A stretch of DNA of 64,000 nucleotides, taken from contig PADB01000009.1 in the NCBI GenBank assembly GCA_002700365.1, positions 62,001 through 126,000 on the forward strand, in the 5' to 3' direction. The DNA is from Kordiimonas sp. GTDB lineage: Bacteria; Pseudomonadota; Alphaproteobacteria; Sphingomonadales; Emcibacteraceae. The notes beneath the pieces are model-generated. The model saw nothing but the letters and a program-made list of their open reading frames with translations. It searched no databases and was not told the DNA's origin. Positions 9,508 through 41,353 of the stretch are shown here, in pieces (the stretch's first letter is position 1; each line of letters opens with the position of its first letter). The position numbers and the translations under genes were made by a program.

Positions 9508-9660
9508 CAAGTGACGGGACCGCTGCTGCCGTGTAGGTACTGTGTATATCCTCTGGTGCCAAAGCAACCAGGTGGGCGCCATTTACACGGACCACGGTCC
9601 GGGCAGGGACAGCTCCCATAGATAAAAATTATCGCCCCAGGGATAGTGTGTCCTACACAA
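9508..9660 (-). ncRNA. ssrS: Putative 6S RNA (ssrS)
   Basis: The 360-bp gap between zapA and the 5-FCL gene has no convincing coding sequence and is the conserved site of 6S RNA, which binds and inhibits the housekeeping RNA polymerase holoenzyme. On the minus strand the segment has an E. coli-like TGTCCCTG box preceded by GGGAGC, internal hairpin arms such as CTGGT...ACCAG, and a closing GGCAGCAGCGGTCCCGTC. The call rests mainly on synteny plus these blocks. Both ends are estimates to within roughly 10-20 bases. Confidence 0.62.
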
Positions 9661-9722
9661 ACAGAGCAGAAACCCGTCTCCTCTTATGTAAGCACTCTTG
9701 ATCAACGGAGCAAGAACAAAGC

Positions 9723-19306: not shown

Positions 19307-19567
19307 TTTGGAATATGGATATCTACGCCCCAGGGCTGTGCACAATATAGGCTTTTGAACCGTATTAACCTTCTGCCTTTTCGGGGGTAACCGGCTAGCC
19401 CGGCCCGCCCTTATCATGCAGCAATGCAACCCTTAATGACAGCACGCAGAGGCTATAACCCTTACCATTCATCGCGGCACCACAGCGGTTCAGAGAATGA
19501 TAAAAGAAGCTGTGTTTCCTGATAAATTTCAATATAACTAAAGATGAGTTTACTGAAATAAAGAAGT

Positions 19568-19938
19568 GTCAGATGGCCTGTAAGCCGGGTTCTGTCCCTG
19601 TCAAACAGGGGATGACCATTCATCTACGACGACGGTTACCCGCCGCCTCTTGCAACCAACCCGAATAACACCCCGGAAGCGGGGCTCTGTCCCGAAAACA
19701 GCGGTCATTCCTATTTGGTTTTGCTCCCGGTGGGGTTTACCCTGCCCCGGCTGTTACCAGACGGGCGGTGTGCTCTTACCACACCCTTTCACCCTTACCC
19801 CGCAAGCGAGGCGGTTTGCTTTCTGTGGCACTGTCCCTGAAGTTACCTTCGCCGGACGTTATCCGGCACCGTGCTTCCGTGGAGCCCGGACTTTCCTCTC
19901 CCCCACTGTGTGAGGCAGCGGCCATCCGGCCATCTGAC
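19568..19938 (-). ncRNA. rnpB: RNase P RNA component, bacterial type A (rnpB)
   Basis: Catalytic RNA that removes tRNA 5' leaders. Both ends pair as helix P1 (GTCAGATGGCC / GGCCATCTGAC). On the minus strand the conserved blocks occur in order: GAGGAAAGTCCGGGCTCCA, GGTAAGGGTGAAAGGGTG-like P-region sequence, GGTAAACCCCACCGGGAGCA, the AGATGAATG block and the ACAGAACCCGGCTTA near the 3' end. Ends are set by P1 and are accurate to a few bases. Confidence 0.95.
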
Positions 19939-30058: not shown

Positions 30059-30718
30059 TTATTTTTGGCGACGACGGGCCAGACCAACACCCAGCAGGCC
30101 AGCACCCAGCAGGCCCAGTGTCAGTGGCTCAGATACGCCCTGATATTCCTGCACGCTACCGAAGAATTCAACTTCGCTCACAAACACCCATGAGCTCCGA
30201 CGGAAGAACTGCAGGTCGACGGCTGAACCTGACAGGTTCAGGTTACCGATTGTAAAGCTTGTGGGCGCACTACCTGCCGGATCAGCAAGAGCTACATTTG
30301 TCAGGCTACCACCGCTCAAACCATAGGACAGAGACGCCGGCGTGCTAACACCTCCAGCACCATTAGCATCATCAACATGAACTGTAATGCTGTTTACAAT
30401 CACAGGAGCAGCAAAATTAAAAGTGATCAGTGGATTACGTGTCCAGCCAACATAGGGCTGCGGTGTATTGAACCAGTTTTGTGTCGCAATCACACCATCA
30501 GTCAGATCACCTGTACCACCAGACAGTGGCGCACCGGATGTTGTCGTGCTGCCCGTACCGTTATAGCTGTCGTCCCAGTACGTGAAGCTACCAGTGTTAC
30601 CATTTAACATGTCATAGCTGGCCACACTCAACTGAGATACCGGAAGGGCCTGCGCCGCTGTTGCAATCAGTGACATCGCTACGCCTGCGAATGCAGCTTT
30701 TAAGGCAATCTTTTTCAT
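30059..30718 (-). CDS. Secreted PEP-CTERM-type protein
   Basis: A 219-residue exported protein. It has a Sec signal peptide (KKIALKAAFAGVAMSLIATA, cleaved after AQA) and a C-terminal sorting signal, VSEPLTLGLLGAGLLG followed by ARRRQK: motif, hydrophobic helix, basic tail, as in exosortase substrates. The motif reads SEP rather than PEP. The body is rich in Ser/Thr/Gly/Asn and has a discoidin-like feel (TFNFAAPVIVNSITVHVDD). The start at 30718 has GGAAG upstream; longer readings add 21 residues without support. No exosortase gene is in the window. Function unknown, probably surface or matrix. Confidence 0.85.
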   Translation of the reverse strand: MKKIALKAAFAGVAMSLIATAAQALPVSQLSVASYDMLNGNTGSFTYWDDSYNGTGSTTTSGAPLSGGTGDLTDGVIATQNWFNTPQPYVGWTRNPLITFNFAAPVIVNSITVHVDDANGAGGVSTPASLSYGLSGGSLTNVALADPAGSAPTSFTIGNLNLSGSAVDLQFFRRSSWVFVSEVEFFGSVQEYQGVSEPLTLGLLGAGLLGVGLARRRQK

Positions 30719-30887
30719 TAACTTCTTCCCACAAAATACAAAAATGTCTCTTTTCCCAACACAAAGCAACCTTTGTGCCAACTGTTACATACTGCGGCGT
30801 TTGGGGGTAGTTAGGGTTTCAAAATTCGAACTATGTAAGAAATGCTGACAGTTTTTTTCTTTCCGAAACGGCTCAGAACAGCCCCAC

Positions 30888-31602: not shown

Positions 31603-34248
31603 CTATCGGTCATAAGCCAGATTTGGCGCCAACCAGCGCTCCGCCTCTGTCAGGTCCAGACCGCGGCGGTTGGCATAATCTTCCACTTGGTCACGGCCGA
31701 TTTTGGCCACACCGAAATAATGGCTTTCCGGGTGGCTAAAATAATAGCCACTAACCGACGACACTGGCAGCATCGCCATGCTGTCTGTCAGGCTGACACC
31801 TGTGACCGCGGTGGCGTCTAGCAATTCAAACAGGGCGGGCTTTTCCGTGTGATCCGGACAGGCCGGATATCCCGGTGCCGGGCGAATACCCTGATATTTT
31901 TCCCGGATCAGCTCTTCATTGCTGAAGTCTTCACCCGTGGCATAGCCCCAGAATTCTGTGCGCACCCGTTCATGCATGTGTTCGGCAAAGGCCTCGGCCA
32001 AACGGTCCGCCAGCGCTTTCAGCAAGATATCGCTATAGTCATCATGCTGGGCCTTGAATTCCGCCAGCTTGCCTTCAATGCCATGACCGGCCGTGACCAC
32101 GAAGCCACCCACATAATCAGCCTTACCGCCTTCCGGCGCCACAAAGTCCGCCAGACAGGCATTGGCGCGACCGGCGCGTTTTTCACCCTGCTGACGTAAG
32201 AAGTGAATACGCTGCAATTCATTGTCACGGCCTTCATCCGTATATAGTGCCACATCGTCACCCACCGCATTGGCGGGCCAGAAACCCACCACCGCACGGG
32301 CCTGAAGCCATTTTTCCGCAATGATCTTCTGCAGCATGTCTTGGGCATCGGCAAATAACTGACGGGCCGTCTCACCCACCACATCATCTTCCAGAATTTG
32401 CGGATAATTCCCGGCCAGTTCCCAGGTGCGGAAAAACGGGGTCCAGTCAATGCGACCCACCAGTTCCGCCAGATCGTAATCTTCAAACACCCGGGTGCCC
32501 AGAAACCCGGGCTTTGGTGGCGTGTAATCGGTCCAGTCCACAGGCACAGCATTGGCACGTGCGGCCGCCACCGGCAGCAGACGGGCTTCGCGTTTATTGG
32601 CGGCATGACGTTCCTGCACCGCCTGATAATCAGCGGCGATATTTGCCACGAAATTATCACGCAGGGTTTCACTGACCAGACTACCGGCCACACCCACCGC
32701 GCGTGAGGCATCCAGCACATGCACCACCGGATGATCATATTGCGGGGCAATTTTCACAGCGGTATGCACCTTGGAGGTAGTCGCCCCACCGATCAGCAGC
32801 GGCACGACATAATCCTGTCGCTTCATTTCCATGGCCACATTGACCATTTCTTCCAGCGACGGTGTAATCAGGCCGGACAGGCCGATAATATCCACCTGTT
32901 CTTCCTTGGCCACCTTCAGGATCGTGTCCACTGGCACCATCACGCCCAGATCAATCACTTCAAAGTTATTACATTGCAGCACAACGCCCACGATATTCTT
33001 ACCAATATCATGCACATCGCCCTTCACCGTTGCCATCAGCACCTTGCCCTTTGCACCGCTGGCACCCCCGGCCTTTTCCTTTTCGATGAAGGGAATAAGG
33101 TGCGCCACGGCCTGTTTCATCACCCGCGCTGATTTCACCACCTGCGGCAGGAACATCTGACCTGACCCAAACAGGTCGCCGACCACATTCATCCCGTCCA
33201 TCAATGGGCCTTCTATCACCTGTAAAGGACGCCCCCCTTCGGCCGCCACCTTTTGGCGCGCTTCTTCGGTGTCTTCCACAATGTGACTGGTAATACCCTT
33301 AACCATGGCATGTTTCAGGCGTTCTTCCACGCTGGCCTCACGCCATGCAAGGTCTTCTTCCGGACGCTTGGCGCCAGCACCTTTAAACTGGTCGGCAATC
33401 TCCAGCAGGCGGTCTGTGGCATCATCGCGACGGTTGAGAATCACATCTTCCACCCGTTCGCGCAGTTCATCCGGAATTTCGGAATAGACCGTAATCATAC
33501 CGGCATTGACAATACCCATATCCAGCCCGGCCTGAATGGCATGATACAGGAAGACTGAATGCATGGCCTCACGGACCGGGTTGTTCCCCCGGAAAGAGAA
33601 CGACACATTGGAAATGCCGCCTGACACATGGGCGTGAGGCAGGTTTTCACGAATGCGGCGTGTGGCATTGATAAAGTCCACACCATAATTATTGTGTTCT
33701 TCAATACCAGTGGCGACCGCAAAGACGTTGGGGTCAAAGATGATATCTTCCGGTGGGAAACCCACCGTATCGACCAGCAAGCGGTAGGCCCGTTCGCAAA
33801 TTTCAAACTTACGCTCTTCTGTGTCCGCTTGGCCTGTCTCGTCAAAGGCCATCACAACAGCAGCAGCACCATAATTCTTGATTTTACGGGCCTGTTCCAG
33901 GAATGCCTCTTCCCCTTCTTTCAGGCTGATAGAATTGACAACACCTTTACCCTGCAGGCATTTCAACCCTGCTTCGATCACAGACCATTTGGAACTGTCG
34001 ATCATCACCGGGACTTTAGCAATATCAGGTTCTGACGCGATCAGGTTCAGGAAAGTGACCATGGCCGCCTCTGAATCCAGCATGGCTTCATCCATGTTCA
34101 CGTCAATGATCTGCGCCCCGGCGTCCACCTGCTGGCGGGCCACATCCAGGGCTTCATCAAACCGTTCTTCCAAAATCAGCTTCTTAAACTTTGCCGATCC
34201 GGTCACATTGGTCCGTTCACCGATATTGATAAAACTTGCCGTCTTCAT
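31603..34248 (-). CDS. metH: Methionine synthase, folate/cobalamin/reactivation part (split MetH)
   Basis: C-terminal three-quarters of cobalamin-dependent methionine synthase, carried as a separate 881-residue protein. Domains in order: pterin-binding barrel (about 1-280, [25 protein letters not shown]), the cobalamin cap and binding domains (about 330-560, with [16 protein letters not shown] holding the cobalt-ligand histidine), and the SAM-binding activation domain (about 580-880, [15 protein letters not shown]). It moves the methyl of 5-methyl-THF through B12. The homocysteine-binding module is the next gene upstream, 61 bp away. Confidence 0.96.
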
Positions 34249-34309: not shown

Positions 34310-35371
34310 CTAAACCGCCTGAAATGTCTCGAGCCCAGCCAGGCGCATCACAGGGGGCTCATTCACTGGTTGGCGCGGGTCCAGCCCGTCCACCGCATCA
34401 GCGATGGCCCGTATATGCTCAGGTGTCGTACCACAACACCCGCCGACGATGTTCAACAGGCTGCTTTCCGCCCATTCCTGCAGGTGGGCGGCCATGGCAT
34501 CCGGGCTTTCATCATATTCACCCATTTCATTAGGCAGGCCAGCATTGGGGTGTGCCGAAATATAGGTATCGGCCACACGGGCAATAGTCTGTACATGCTG
34601 GCGCAACTCACCCGCGCCCAGCGCACAATTAAACCCAATACTGATGGGGTCAGCGTGTTTGACAGAATACCAGAACGCATCCGCTGTCTGCCCGGATAAT
34701 GTTCGGCCTGACGCATCGGTAATGGTGCCGGAAATCATGATAGGCAATTCGTGTTCCTGGCGTTCAAATACCGTCTTCACGGCAAAAATCGCGGCCTTGG
34801 CATTTAAGGTATCAAACACAGTTTCAATCAGGATGATATCTGCGCCACCATCGATCAGTGCCTCTGTGGCCTCCACATAATTGTCCACCAGTTCGTCAAA
34901 GGTGACATTACGGAAAGCCGGGTCGTTCACATCTGGTGAAATGGACGCAGTGCGGCTGGTTGGCCCCAAAACACCCGCGACAAAACGCGGACGGTGCGGG
35001 GTTTCACGGGTCATTTCATCGGCGGCTTCGCGGGCCAGTCGCGCCCCTTCACGGTTCAATTCGCCCACCAGATCCTGCATGCCATAATCTGCTTCAGAAA
35101 TGCGGGTGGCATTAAAGGTATTGGTTTCCAGAATATCCGCGCCGGCCTGAAGATAGTCGGTATGAATATCCTTGATAATATCCGGCTGCGTCAGGTTCAA
35201 AAGATCATTATTGCCCTTCACGTCCTGTCCCCAGTCTGCAAAACGTGCGCCACGATAATCAGCCTCATCCAGTTTATGCTGCTGAATCATGGTCCCCATC
35301 GCCCCGTCCAGCACGAGTATACGTTCTTCCAACGCCCGCTGCAGGGCGGTTATTCTTTGCTCACGTGTCAT
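34310..35371 (-). CDS. Homocysteine S-methyltransferase module (split MetH N-terminus)
   Basis: A 353-residue protein equal to the N-terminal homocysteine-binding barrel of MetH. Motifs: [13 protein letters not shown] at the start, [16 protein letters not shown], and the zinc ligands, one in IGFNCALG and a pair in [13 protein letters not shown]. It would pass homocysteine to the B12 protein encoded just downstream; the two must act together as one enzyme. I start at 35371 (GAGG nearby); the frame stays open another 41 residues that overlap metF and are unrelated to the family. The start is eight bases after the metF stop. Confidence 0.94.
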
Positions 35372-35379
35372 TATGTCCT

Positions 35380-36285
35380 CTATGCTGCGGGAGGGCGAAT
35401 GCCCAAAATATGACAAATCGTATAGGTCAGTGCCGCACGGTTCAGGGTATAAAAATGAAATTCCTTCACGCCCCCCTGATAAAGGCGCATACATTGTTCC
35501 GCCGCCACAGTCGCCGCCACCATTTGTCGTGTATTTGGGTGGTCATCTAATCCCGCAAATAAATCTTCCAGCCAGTCAGGCACAGACGTCCCGCAGGACG
35601 CACTGAATTTTTTTGCCTGCTTAAAGTTTGTTACCGGCATAATACCCGGCACAATCGGCACATCAATGCCCGCTGCCAGCACCCGGTCCATAAAGCGGAA
35701 ATACACATCCACATCAAAGAAGTATTGTGTGATGGCGCGGTTGGCCCCGGCATCTATTTTCCGTTTCAGATTATCAATATCCGCGTTCACGTCTGAAGAA
35801 TCCGGATGGCATTCCGGGTAGGCGGCGACAGAAATATCAAAATCGCCGATTTTCTTCAGCCCTTCCACCAGCGCGGCGGCATTTTCATAACCGCCCGGAT
35901 GGGGCTGATAAGCCGCTCCCAGCTCCGGCATGTCACCACGCAGGGCCACGATATGTCGCACACCTTCATCCCAATATTGCCGTGCCACCTCATCCACTTC
36001 GTCACGGGTGGCGGCCACACAGGTCAGATGAGCCGCAGGGGTCAATGATGTTTCTTTTAATATCCGTGTGACGGTACTATGCGTGCGTTCCCGCGTGGAG
36101 CCACCGGCCCCGTAAGTCACGGATACAAAAGATGGCTGCAAAGATTCCAGACTACGAATAGAGTCCCATAACGTCTGTTCCATTTTTTCCGTTTGTGGCG
36201 GAAAAAATTCAAATGACGCCGAAATCCCCTTTGCCTTTGCCGCAAACAAACTTGGCCGCAGCAAATCAATATTATTTGTACTCAC
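35380..36285 (-). CDS. metF: Methylenetetrahydrofolate reductase
   Basis: Flavoprotein that reduces 5,10-methylene-THF to 5-methyl-THF, supplying the methyl group for methionine synthase. The 301-residue barrel has [45 protein letters not shown] and [17 protein letters not shown], all typical of MetF. Length is normal. It lies between the ArsR-methyltransferase regulator (30 bp upstream) and the split metH genes (eight bp downstream), making one methionine-cycle operon. Confidence 0.97.
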
Positions 36286-36315: not shown

Positions 36316-37257
36316 CTATGGCTTATCTGCTGCCCAGATCATCACAACCAGTTCTTTCCCATCCATCTGTATAACTGGCTGTGGCACAAGACCCGCCTGT
36401 TCGCACCAACGGCTGATTTCCTTTGCGCCAAAACCTAGTCGACGGTGGGCATGCTCATCACGCAAAAATTCCAGATTATGCGGGGCAAAATCCACAACTA
36501 TTACCCGTCCTCCCGCCTTTAACAGGCGCCCTGCTTCCCGTATGGCCGAAAGCGGATTATCGGCGAAATGCAACACCTGATGAAAAAGCACCAAATCCAT
36601 TGTTTCGCTGGACAGTGCCAAATCATACATATCCCCATGACGCACCTGGCAATTCCGCAGACCTTTTCGTTCCAGATTATCACGGGCAATCGCCAACATC
36701 TCATGGCTCAGGTCGACGCCAATGCCCCGGGTAATGCGCGGGGAGAACACCTCTAACATCCGGCCTGTTCCCGTCCCCACATCCAACATATCATCTATGT
36801 CACGCCCCTCCGTCAGCGACAACAAAGCCGCTTCCACCTGCCCTTCCGGCACATAAAGAGAGCGTATTTTATCCCATCGTTCCGCATTTTCCTTAAAATA
36901 GGTTGCGGCTACGGCATGACGTTCTTCTTTCACGGCAGACAACTGTTCCTGATCCGTCAGCAAAAGCTGGTCCTGTCGGGGCAACATATTAACAATTTGC
37001 AGTGCCAGACGGCCGGCCTCTCCACTATCGGCAAGACGATAAAATATCCATGTTCCCTCCCGGAAACGTTCCAGCAACCCCGCTTCGCAGAGCAATTTTA
37101 AATGTCGCGATACGCGCGGCTGACTTTGACGTAAGATTGTTGTCAATTCCGTCACGGTCAGCTCACCAAACGTCAACAAAGCCAGTATACGCAGCCGGGT
37201 TTGTTCCCCGGCAGCGCGCAAACTGGCCAAAACTTCTAATACGGATAATTCGGTCAT
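36316..37257 (-). CDS. ArsR-family regulator fused to a SAM-dependent methyltransferase domain (SahR-like)
   Basis: The 313-residue protein joins an N-terminal ArsR winged helix (about 1-95, LTVTELTTILRQSQPRVSRHLKLL) to a class I methyltransferase domain (about 140-300, with the SAM-binding MLDVGTGTGRMLEVF). No thiol metal-binding motif (ELCVCD type) is visible in the helix, so metal sensing is unlikely. Its position at the head of metF-metH and the palindrome just upstream fit a regulator that senses SAM or S-adenosylhomocysteine, as reported for SahR proteins. Whether the C-terminal domain catalyses or only binds ligand is open. Confidence 0.9.
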   Translation of the reverse strand: MTELSVLEVLASLRAAGEQTRLRILALLTFGELTVTELTTILRQSQPRVSRHLKLLCEAGLLERFREGTWIFYRLADSGEAGRLALQIVNMLPRQDQLLLTDQEQLSAVKEERHAVAATYFKENAERWDKIRSLYVPEGQVEAALLSLTEGRDIDDMLDVGTGTGRMLEVFSPRITRGIGVDLSHEMLAIARDNLERKGLRNCQVRHGDMYDLALSSETMDLVLFHQVLHFADNPLSAIREAGRLLKAGGRVIVVDFAPHNLEFLRDEHAHRRLGFGAKEISRWCEQAGLVPQPVIQMDGKELVVMIWAADKP

Positions 37258-37292
37258 CTTCCTGTAAATCGCCCCACAATCTTAGATATAAG

Positions 37293-37312
37293 ATATAAAG
37301 ATATCTTTATAT
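37293..37312 (-). promoter_or_regulatory. Perfect 20-bp palindromic operator of the met operon
   Basis: ATATAAAGATATCTTTATAT is its own reverse complement and sits 36-55 bp before the regulator start, where a promoter is expected. AT-rich palindromes around GATATC with AAAG/CTTT arms are what I recall for SahR-type ArsR regulators; autoregulation of the regulator-metF-metH operon is the likely use. Confidence 0.7.
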
Positions 37313-37441
37313 ATTTCAACAGAAATATGCGGCTGTGCGATTATCTTTATTTTCGCCATTAATAAAGCCTTCAGTATATGACGTTAAAATGACATCACTT
37401 TCGTCTATCAACACCAAATCTTAGAGGGCAGTCTGGCCAAT

Positions 37442-39664
37442 ATGATGGATCATCAGGAACGTCAGTTTTTCGCAAAACTGAATACACTATTGCTACAACT
37501 CGATGATGTTTCAGGCGAGAACTTCTTTCATCAGATCACATCTGCCCTGATGCAAATGAGCGGTCATGTGATTGACTATGCCTTTATCGCATCAGCAGAT
37601 AATGATGATCAGGATGTCATGACCATACTGTCAATACAGGGCCATGACGGTCTATTACAGAATTTCCGTTATGACTTAAACGGCACTCCCTGTGCCAAGG
37701 CCATGCATGACTCCCACTGTTTCTACCCTGATAATGTGGCAGACCTCTATCCCGAAGATAAAATTCTGCAGGATATGGATATACGCGGTTATACGGGTAT
37801 TCGTCTGTCAGATAACAATGGTAAGGCCATCGGTGTTCTTGGCCTGCTGAGTCACGCGTTATTGACGGAAGAAGCATATTTAATGTGCCTGTTGCAGATA
37901 TTCGGAGCCAAAACAGCGAATGTGCTGGAAAAAAATATATTTGATAACCGGTTAGAGCTTTCATCCCGGACAACCCAACATGCCCTCTTGGAATTGGCAC
38001 AGATTAAACTGGCCCTTGATGAACATGCGACACTCGCCATCACCACGGAAGACGGTATTTTAAAATACGTCAACCAACGCTTCTGTGATCAAGCCAGATA
38101 CAGCCGCGCTGAATTAATGGGTAAGCCTTTCGCCTTTCTGAAGCCCGGTCATCAGGATCATGAGACATACAGTGCCCTACAGGAGTCCATAAAAACCAAA
38201 TCTCCCTGGCAGGGTGAAATTCAATACATAGATAGCCGCGTGGGTGACATTGCCTTCGACACCACCTGTTACCCCCTCAAAGCTGCGGATGGCAGCATTG
38301 AGGAAGTTGTCTTCATCATGACCGATATCACAGACCGCATACATAAGGAAAAAGCCTTAGCCCACGCCCTGCGCGCGTCTGAAGAAGCCAATAGAGTAAA
38401 GAATAATTTCCTCGCCGTCATGAGCCATGAAGTACGTACCCCCATGAACGGTATTCTTGGCATGGCGCAATTGCTTCACCAAAGTGACTTAAATCCGGAA
38501 CAGGAAAAAAATGTCAGTGCGATCTTGTCTTCCGGCTGGGCCCTATTGAATCTATTAAACGAAGTATTGGATAGTTCAAAGCTGGAAGCTCAAAACCTGC
38601 GGCTGGAAAACAGCCCCGTTGACCCAGTTGCTCTGTTACAGGAAATTGAAAATACGCTTGCACCGTCTGCCCGGCTCAAAAATCTGGATTTTACCGTTCA
38701 CGTGGATCAGAATATTCCCGTTGTCATGGCAGACCCCTACCGACTGCGCCAAGTGCTGTTAAATCTGGTAGGTAACGCGATAAAATTCACCAATGAAGGA
38801 CAGGTCTTAATCTTTTTGCGGCAGCAAAACGCTGACAAGCCTGATATCACACGCCTCATTATTGATATACAAGATACCGGTATTGGCATTCCTGCCGACC
38901 AACAAACAAAAATATTCGAACGGTTTTATCAAATCGATGATAGCACCCGACGCCAATACGAAGGTAGCGGTCTGGGGCTCGCTATTTGTAAAGACTTGAT
39001 AGACCTTATGCGCGGCACTATTCAGGTCAAAAGCGAAGAAGGAATGGGTACGTCATTCAGCCTAACTCTGGATTTACCATTAGCCAAGGCAGACGATAAA
39101 GAAATACCCTCACAACACGCTGAACAGACCGCAATGAATACACCACCTGTAGGCGACCATGCCGCAGTATATAACAATGGAAGCCAACCCCTCCCACAAA
39201 TGGCAGCAGGTCACATGCCGACTGTAGAAGGGAACACGGACGAAGACTTTACCCCGGTGAATAGCGGTCACATTCTGCTGGCCGAAGATAATCACATCAA
39301 TCAGCTTTTTGTCACGACCTTGCTGAAAAAAGCGGGCTACAGCATCACCACGGCCGATAACGGGCAACAGGTTTTGGACCTGCTACAGGCCCAGCCCGAC
39401 AGCTATCACTTAATCCTGATGGATATCCAAATGCCCGTGCTTAATGGCTTGGACACAACAAAGGTCATTCGTGTACAAGAAGCTCCCTATGCCGAAATAC
39501 CTATCATTGCCTTAACCGCCAACAGCCATAAAGATGACGAAGACCTTTATCTCAAAAGCGGCATGGACGCGTATGTCCCTAAACCCCTGCAGCCCGAAGA
39601 TCTGTTCAACACTATTGCCAAATTATTGAACCGCAATGCCCCCTACAGTGCGGCAACCAACTAA
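37442..39664 (+). CDS. Hybrid sensor histidine kinase/response regulator
   Basis: A soluble 740-residue signalling protein. A GAF-like sensor fills about 1-170, a PAS domain about 190-310 (LAITTEDGILKYVNQRF), then HisKA with MSHEVRTPMNG (phospho-acceptor His329), HATPase with N box LRQVLLNLVGNAIKFT, G1 box DIQDTGIGIP and G2 box GSGLGLAICK, and a C-terminal receiver with LMDIQMP (phospho-Asp661). All catalytic motifs are intact. No transmembrane helix, so it senses a cytosolic cue. No partner regulator or phosphotransfer protein is next to it; it is divergent from the met operon. Confidence 0.94.
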   Translation: MMDHQERQFFAKLNTLLLQLDDVSGENFFHQITSALMQMSGHVIDYAFIASADNDDQDVMTILSIQGHDGLLQNFRYDLNGTPCAKAMHDSHCFYPDNVADLYPEDKILQDMDIRGYTGIRLSDNNGKAIGVLGLLSHALLTEEAYLMCLLQIFGAKTANVLEKNIFDNRLELSSRTTQHALLELAQIKLALDEHATLAITTEDGILKYVNQRFCDQARYSRAELMGKPFAFLKPGHQDHETYSALQESIKTKSPWQGEIQYIDSRVGDIAFDTTCYPLKAADGSIEEVVFIMTDITDRIHKEKALAHALRASEEANRVKNNFLAVMSHEVRTPMNGILGMAQLLHQSDLNPEQEKNVSAILSSGWALLNLLNEVLDSSKLEAQNLRLENSPVDPVALLQEIENTLAPSARLKNLDFTVHVDQNIPVVMADPYRLRQVLLNLVGNAIKFTNEGQVLIFLRQQNADKPDITRLIIDIQDTGIGIPADQQTKIFERFYQIDDSTRRQYEGSGLGLAICKDLIDLMRGTIQVKSEEGMGTSFSLTLDLPLAKADDKEIPSQHAEQTAMNTPPVGDHAAVYNNGSQPLPQMAAGHMPTVEGNTDEDFTPVNSGHILLAEDNHINQLFVTTLLKKAGYSITTADNGQQVLDLLQAQPDSYHLILMDIQMPVLNGLDTTKVIRVQEAPYAEIPIIALTANSHKDDEDLYLKSGMDAYVPKPLQPEDLFNTIAKLLNRNAPYSAATN

Positions 39665-39730: not shown

Positions 39731-40561
39731 ATGACCCTTTTCACGGCTCCCTCTCTTCTCTCAATCCGCAAAGGACGCTTTTCCTTAAAAGGAGCCGTCC
39801 CGCATGTTTTTCTGATTTTATTACTGGTGACACTATTATCGGCATGTGCGACCCGCCCCCCTGCAAGCGACCCGGAAGCCGTGCAAATATACGAAGAAAT
39901 TAACGATCCTTTTGAACCGTTTAACCGCGCCGTGTTCTCATTCAATCGCACGATTGATGCCTATCTTCTGGAACCCGCCGCCCGGGTATATCGTAAATAC
40001 GGCCCCCCTGAGCTGCGCGAAATTGTTACTAATGTCGTCCGCAACTGGCTGGCACCGCTCACTTTCGTCAACGACCTACTACAGGGCGAATTAAACCGTG
40101 CTGCCGTCACATTGAAACGTTTCGCAACGAATACAACCGTGGGGCTTTTGGGCATTATGGACCCGGCCACAGATTTCGGCCTCCCCTATCATAGCGAGGA
40201 CTTTGGACAAACCTTAGCCAGTTGGGGCGTCGGAGACGGTCCATATATCGTTTTACCTATCCTGGGTCCTTCCGGCCTGCGCGATACCTCTGGAACAGTT
40301 GCAGAATTTTTCTATGACCCCGTTGGTCTTTATCTGGAACATGAAGGCTGGACCTATGTCAGCTATACACGCACGGGCTTACGCGGTCTGGCCTCACGGG
40401 AACGCAATTTGGAAACACTTGATGAACTGGAAAAAAGTTCTGTTGATTTCTACGCTACGCTGCGCAGTGCCTATCGGCAAAACCGGGCATTTGAAATTAG
40501 CAACGGGCGCATAAGCACAGAAGAAGATGAAGACGCCCTTTTTGATGAGCCTATGGATTAA
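39731..40561 (+). CDS. mlaA: Phospholipid-transport outer membrane lipoprotein MlaA (VacJ)
   Basis: Outer-membrane lipoprotein that removes mislocalised phospholipids from the outer leaflet in the Mla pathway. The 276 residues include a long signal with lipobox LLSAC (Cys39) and the family core DPFEPFNRAVFSFNRTID, RFATNTTVGLLGIMDPA and GDGPYIVLPILGPS. The acidic C-terminal tail is outside the domain. The mlaBCDEF partners are not in this window. A strong terminator follows. Confidence 0.95.
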   Translation: MTLFTAPSLLSIRKGRFSLKGAVPHVFLILLLVTLLSACATRPPASDPEAVQIYEEINDPFEPFNRAVFSFNRTIDAYLLEPAARVYRKYGPPELREIVTNVVRNWLAPLTFVNDLLQGELNRAAVTLKRFATNTTVGLLGIMDPATDFGLPYHSEDFGQTLASWGVGDGPYIVLPILGPSGLRDTSGTVAEFFYDPVGLYLEHEGWTYVSYTRTGLRGLASRERNLETLDELEKSSVDFYATLRSAYRQNRAFEISNGRISTEEDEDALFDEPMD

Positions 40562-40591: not shown

Positions 40592-40617
40592 AAAAGAGGG
40601 CATATGCCCTCTTTTTT
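40592..40617 (+). terminator. Rho-independent terminator after mlaA
   Basis: Stem AAAAGAGGGCAT / ATGCCCTCTTTT with a following T-run, 31 bp after the mlaA stop codon. Confidence 0.9.
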
Positions 40618-40753: not shown

Positions 40754-41353
40754 ATGGTTGATTACACGTCTGGCGCCCCAACTGAAGATTCCATAACGGC
40801 GGAATATGCCGTCAAAGGGCGCGGTCACCTGAAAATGCAATGGCCCGCCCTAATGACTTTAGGGCTTGTCGGGGTATTATTCCCCATACTTTCCCGTTAC
40901 ACCGCCCCCGTAGAAGCTCAAGCCATTCTGGTTGAACACCTGACAATCAAATTTGTCGGTACCTTGCTATTATTACATGGCCTGATGATACTATGGTTTA
41001 CTGTACACTATGGCATGAAGCCCGGCTTTTCCTGGCGCGCGGGCATGACCATTTTCACCCTGTTTGTCGCTTCCGGCGTGCTGATTGATCCTCTGGACCT
41101 GCATATTCCGATTGCCGTGAGTGTAGCCAGTTATATTATCGCCACCGCAATTTATCTCATCGTGGAAGGCAAAACTGTCTTCGTCGGTGAAAGTTCCCGC
41201 CCCCTCTTCATCAATGCAGGGATCAGCATTTTGCTAGGCTTCAGCCTTATACCGGATTTGCCAATGCCTGAATTCTGGCGCCCCCCATTTGTGCTGGGCT
41301 TGTATTTTGTCTTATTAGCCCTGGGCCTAAGATCCGTATCAAGTGATGCCTAA
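40754..41353 (+). CDS. Unknown five- or six-helix membrane protein
   Basis: I do not recognise this 199-residue protein. After a polar start of about 30 residues it has hydrophobic segments near 31-47 (ALMTLGLVGVLFPIL), 62-80, 93-108, 117-136 (IAVSVASYIIATAIYLIV), 150-165 and 176-193. No charged catalytic motif stands out. AAAGGAG is well placed before the ATG. It is bounded by terminators on both sides, hence monocistronic, and has a candidate oxygen-responsive site upstream, so a role under low oxygen is a testable guess. Confidence 0.8.
   Translation: MVDYTSGAPTEDSITAEYAVKGRGHLKMQWPALMTLGLVGVLFPILSRYTAPVEAQAILVEHLTIKFVGTLLLLHGLMILWFTVHYGMKPGFSWRAGMTIFTLFVASGVLIDPLDLHIPIAVSVASYIIATAIYLIVEGKTVFVGESSRPLFINAGISILLGFSLIPDLPMPEFWRPPFVLGLYFVLLALGLRSVSSDA

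Follow-up and report, generated by a model that had tools for sequence, protein, structure and literature searches.

The window, a 64,000-nucleotide stretch of Kordiimonas DNA, carries on its reverse strand a gene for an ArsR-type regulator, sahR, followed by metF and the two genes of a split methionine synthase. The genes and the sites upstream of them are as follows.

37290–37319, reverse strand: weak sigma-70-like promoter, TTGAAA - 18 - TATCTT, spacer mostly occupied by the operator
37293–37312, no strand: predicted SahR operator, perfect 20-bp palindrome ATATAAAGATATCTTTATAT
36316–37257, reverse strand: sahR, 313 aa, ArsR-type helix-turn-helix (HTH), helical linker and class I methyltransferase-like effector domain
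35380–36285, reverse strand: metF, 5,10-methylenetetrahydrofolate reductase
34310–35371, reverse strand: metH1, homocysteine S-methyltransferase half of the split methionine synthase, with MTREQRI taken as its start
31603–34248, reverse strand: metH2, the part of the split methionine synthase with its pterin-binding, B12-binding and activation domains

The genes follow each other in the order sahR, metF, metH1 and metH2, and because the successive gaps are only about 30, 8 and 61 bp they look like one operon, which measures 5655 bp from the start of sahR to the end of metH2. The sequence-only reading had placed the regulator at the head of a metF–split metH operon, and this arrangement holds. 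A hybrid PAS histidine kinase with a receiver domain (37442–39664) is divergent from sahR and shares the intergenic region with it. Elsewhere in the window are a secreted protein with a PEP-CTERM-like C-terminal tail (EPLTLGLLGAGLLGVGLARRRQK, 30059–30721) and, both on the reverse strand and at the gathering threshold, class A RNase P RNA (19565–19937) and 6S RNA (9513–9675).

The palindrome ATATAAAGATATCTTTATAT sits 36–55 bp upstream of the sahR ATG at 37257, exactly where it had been reported from the sequence. It occurs only once in the window, even with up to three mismatches allowed. The window holds two perfect 20-bp palindromes where 0.1 would be expected per 64 kb. In the 184-bp AT-rich intergenic stretch upstream of sahR, one would arise by chance with a probability of about 0.0006. 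This probability, together with the recurrence of the palindrome in relatives above the reversed control, leads us to reject a chance palindrome. The promoter-like pair straddling the operator would suit a repressor, but pairs like TTGAAA-18-TATCTT are just as frequent by chance in the promoter scan, and the promoter itself is no better than chance. The second of the window's two perfect palindromes, AAGAGGGCATATGCCCTCTT at 40594–40613, lies between an MlaA-like lipoprotein gene (39731–40561) and position 40754, and is perhaps a terminator or an operator.

The sahR product consists of an HTH domain (residues ~6–76), a helical linker (97–132) and an effector domain (~138–313). The N-terminal half matches HTH_5 with an E-value of 1.8e-12 and the C-terminal half matches Methyltransf_11 with an E-value of 1.2e-22. 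Two features pointed out in the sequence-only reading are borne out. The SAM-binding motif of the C-terminal half, VGTGTGRM, is intact, and residues 32–38 of helix α3 read ELTVTEL in place of ELCVCDL, with the metal-binding cysteines absent. The AlphaFold2 model is confident (pLDDT 89.7, pTM 0.76) and folds into a winged helix (residues 6–75), a long helix (97–132) and a Rossmann-type domain. The effector half superposes on the class I methyltransferases YcgJ (1xxl) and BH2331 (1vl5), which lack an ArsR domain, with Z of about 23 and an rmsd of 1.6–1.7 over 173–175 residues. A sequence search found no solved chain spanning the full two-domain architecture; the top two-domain Foldseek match is the methyltransferase Rv2258c, with a TM-score of only about 0.48.

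An alignment of homologues, first of 23 sequences and then enlarged to 77, shows where the family is conserved. Conserved elements are QSQPRVSRH in the region of the recognition helix, the SAM motif DxGTGxGRxL and the acidic residue D182. A second set, H226, H230, D256, H260, R266 and R272, with which H271 is also listed, is at least 97% conserved in alphaproteobacteria. No cysteine column is conserved among the 77 homologues, the best one reaching 53/77.

Across the whole 2.4-Mb genome there are exactly three sites within three mismatches of the palindrome, upstream of sahR, ahcY and metK. The ahcY site, GCATAAAGAAATCTTTATAT, is 123 bp upstream of the ahcY ATG, and the metK site, ACATAAAGAAATCTTTATGT, is 59 bp upstream of the metK GTG. 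The sequence-only reading had proposed looking for further copies upstream of ahcY, metK and metE; the first two genes each have one, so the motif recurs twice at methionine-cycle genes, and the same search gave no site before metE. A looser search with a 16-bp core gives 25 matches against 9 for the reversed control, and only the three known sites among these 25 have the exact core. No Rfam riboswitch matches at these SAM-cycle operons at the gathering threshold, and riboswitch control is rejected on this ground. Genes for HPr-like and EIIA-like PTS proteins adjoin ahcY (L002:1557-2242), and an HPr-like gene is close to ahcY in several relatives too.

The same arrangement is found in other alphaproteobacteria. 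Palindrome sites are present in all 40 genomes searched among relatives, that of Kordiimonas included, with 112 sites in total against 27 for the reversed pattern. Five of these related genomes (G001–G004 and G013), each examined in full, have one site each upstream of sahR-metF, ahcY and metK. Twenty sites were fetched from relatives, and 16 of them are upstream of sahR-metF, ahcY or metK. The sites at L092, L098, L100 and L107, with three mismatches each, adjoin no SAM-cycle gene and are put down to chance; that at L107 falls inside an open reading frame. A full-length sahR homologue is present in single copy in 79 of 143 alphaproteobacterial genomes. Among the best 29 of these 79 loci, metF adjoins the homologue in 28 and the palindrome, with up to four mismatches accepted, is upstream in 27. 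In a separate set of 29 loci, the palindrome is again upstream of sahR in 27. The copies at ahcY and metK and this conserved arrangement support the early suggestion that the gene encodes a methionine regulator of the SahR type and that the palindrome is its operator.

Outside the class, a sample of the phylum contains full-length two-domain homologues with 29–35% identity. Their neighbourhoods are sahR-metK, sahR-metK-ahcY-metF, or a homologue adjoining metH1-metH2, and in three of them (L168, L169 and L176) a palindrome or near-palindrome of the type ATATCAAAA..TTTTGATAT is directly upstream of the homologue. These homologues appear to match what has been published on SahR of gammaproteobacteria and on SamR of Xanthomonadales. 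SamR is a distant homologue (~30% identity) beside metH1-metH2, and L172–L174 are likely its relatives. Between the clades the SAM/SAH-binding glycines and D182 are kept, and H226, H271 and R272 vary in the gammaproteobacterial-type homologues. This pattern is as expected if the common function were ligand binding and not one reaction.

SahR is described as an SAH-responsive regulator of the ArsR family with a 20-bp palindromic motif and a core regulon of sahR, ahcY, metH, metH2, metF and metK (Leyn et al. 2014, PMC4239095). Family, motif length and the targets sahR, metF, metH, metH2, ahcY and metK of the alphaproteobacterial SahR regulon are all matched here. We find no essential difference, and Kordiimonas is just another genome with this regulon. 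SamR of Xanthomonadales differs from the Kordiimonas regulator in its 24-bp motif and in a larger regulon without ahcY (PMC4239095). Judged by its sequence, the Kordiimonas regulator is an ordinary member of the described SahR family. The domain architecture, the predicted operator, the three-member regulon and their conservation are established here. Novichkov and colleagues reportedly described SahR in 2014 as a repressor that SAH releases, with an effector domain akin to SAM-dependent methylases. Because of this description and the full-length two-domain relatives, we regard the methyltransferase-like half as the ordinary SahR effector domain and not as a new fusion. The sequence-only reading, which took this domain for an addition to SahR, is corrected in this respect.

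The sahR product is thus very probably a repressor at three SAM-cycle operons whose methyltransferase-like half senses SAH, with SAH releasing the protein from the DNA. Repression, the identity of the ligand and the release are carried over by analogy from the published SahR family. SahR would bind the palindrome at its own operon (sahR-metF-metH1-metH2), at ahcY and at metK, and when bound at all three would keep the whole SAM cycle down. The methyltransferase-like half would act as the sensor, with accumulating SAH occupying the SAM/SAH pocket. The SAH-loaded dimer would then come off the DNA, and the freed genes would clear SAH and regenerate methionine and SAM.

The alternative that survives best, itself improbable, is a bifunctional regulator and enzyme, in which the C-terminal half methylates arsenite or another acceptor and the SAH produced feeds back on DNA binding. 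It draws on work by Li et al. (2023, PMC10190100), who present the ArsR-M protein from Brevundimonas sp. M20 as an enzyme that methylates arsenite. ArsR-M heads the metRFHH operon (arsRM-metF-HMT-metH), which has the same gene order as the sahR operon and a length of 5649 bp (5655 bp here), and it binds its own promoter, in a segment containing CTTTATATAAAG (PMC10190100). Seven of the eight distinct ArsR-M pocket residues checked have a counterpart here at a constant offset of 3; H223, Q224, H227, Y228, F254, R263 and H268 correspond to H226, Q227, H230, F231, F257, R266 and H271. C134 of ArsR-M, assigned in that paper to the arsenic site, aligns with a proline here. Compared through the published operon and residues, ArsR-M is, we infer, a SahR, a name that occurs nowhere in the paper (PMC10190100). 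Unlike SahR, it is described as an arsenite methyltransferase, and its activity comes from an assay kit that counts the SAH produced (PMC10190100). Catalysis claimed for a protein apparently of this same family counts against a SahR that is purely a sensor, and the second conserved residue set of the alphaproteobacteria also favours methyl transfer. Against this stand the lack of a conserved cysteine in the family, the NCBIfam arsenite methyltransferase model, which scores 58 bits where its curated cut-off is 263, and the variation of H226, H271 and R272 between clades that keep the SAM/SAH glycines and D182. On the first two counts an ArsM-type arsenite methylase is rejected, and from the sequence both metal sensing and ArsM-type arsenite methylation by the sahR product are unlikely. 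We give a similarly small probability to alphaproteobacterial SahR being also an active methyltransferase that makes the SAH it senses. If it were, the conserved acceptor-side residues H226, R266, H271 and R272 would serve an unknown acceptor, and the arsenite activity in Brevundimonas would be a side reaction.

It is very unlikely that the same regulon responds instead to SAM as a co-repressor, as proposed for SamR of Xanthomonadales. The motif of the pocket suits SAM and SAH alike and the effector of SamR is unknown (PMC4239095), but ahcY, whose presence in the regulon the published analysis links to SAH sensing, is a member here, and metK is the only SAM-cycle gene in SamR regulons (PMC4239095). 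That the protein is a common ArsR repressor sensing metal or arsenic and stands before methionine genes by accident, as its NCBIfam name (metalloregulator ArsR/SmtB family; score 78.6 bits with a cut-off of 55) might suggest, is so improbable that we reject it, given an α3 and a family without the cysteines, the conserved metF linkage and the sites upstream of ahcY and metK.

SAH-responsive repression by SahR is therefore the reading we retain. ArsR-M, published as an arsenite methyltransferase, is apparently a SahR itself, and its reported activity bears on how far the effector half of SahR might act as an enzyme besides sensing. The metalloregulator name, given to proteins with no conserved metal ligand residues, is liable to mislead annotation throughout the family. 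For the Kordiimonas lineage, the regulator gene is settled as SahR, with a clean regulon of three operons.
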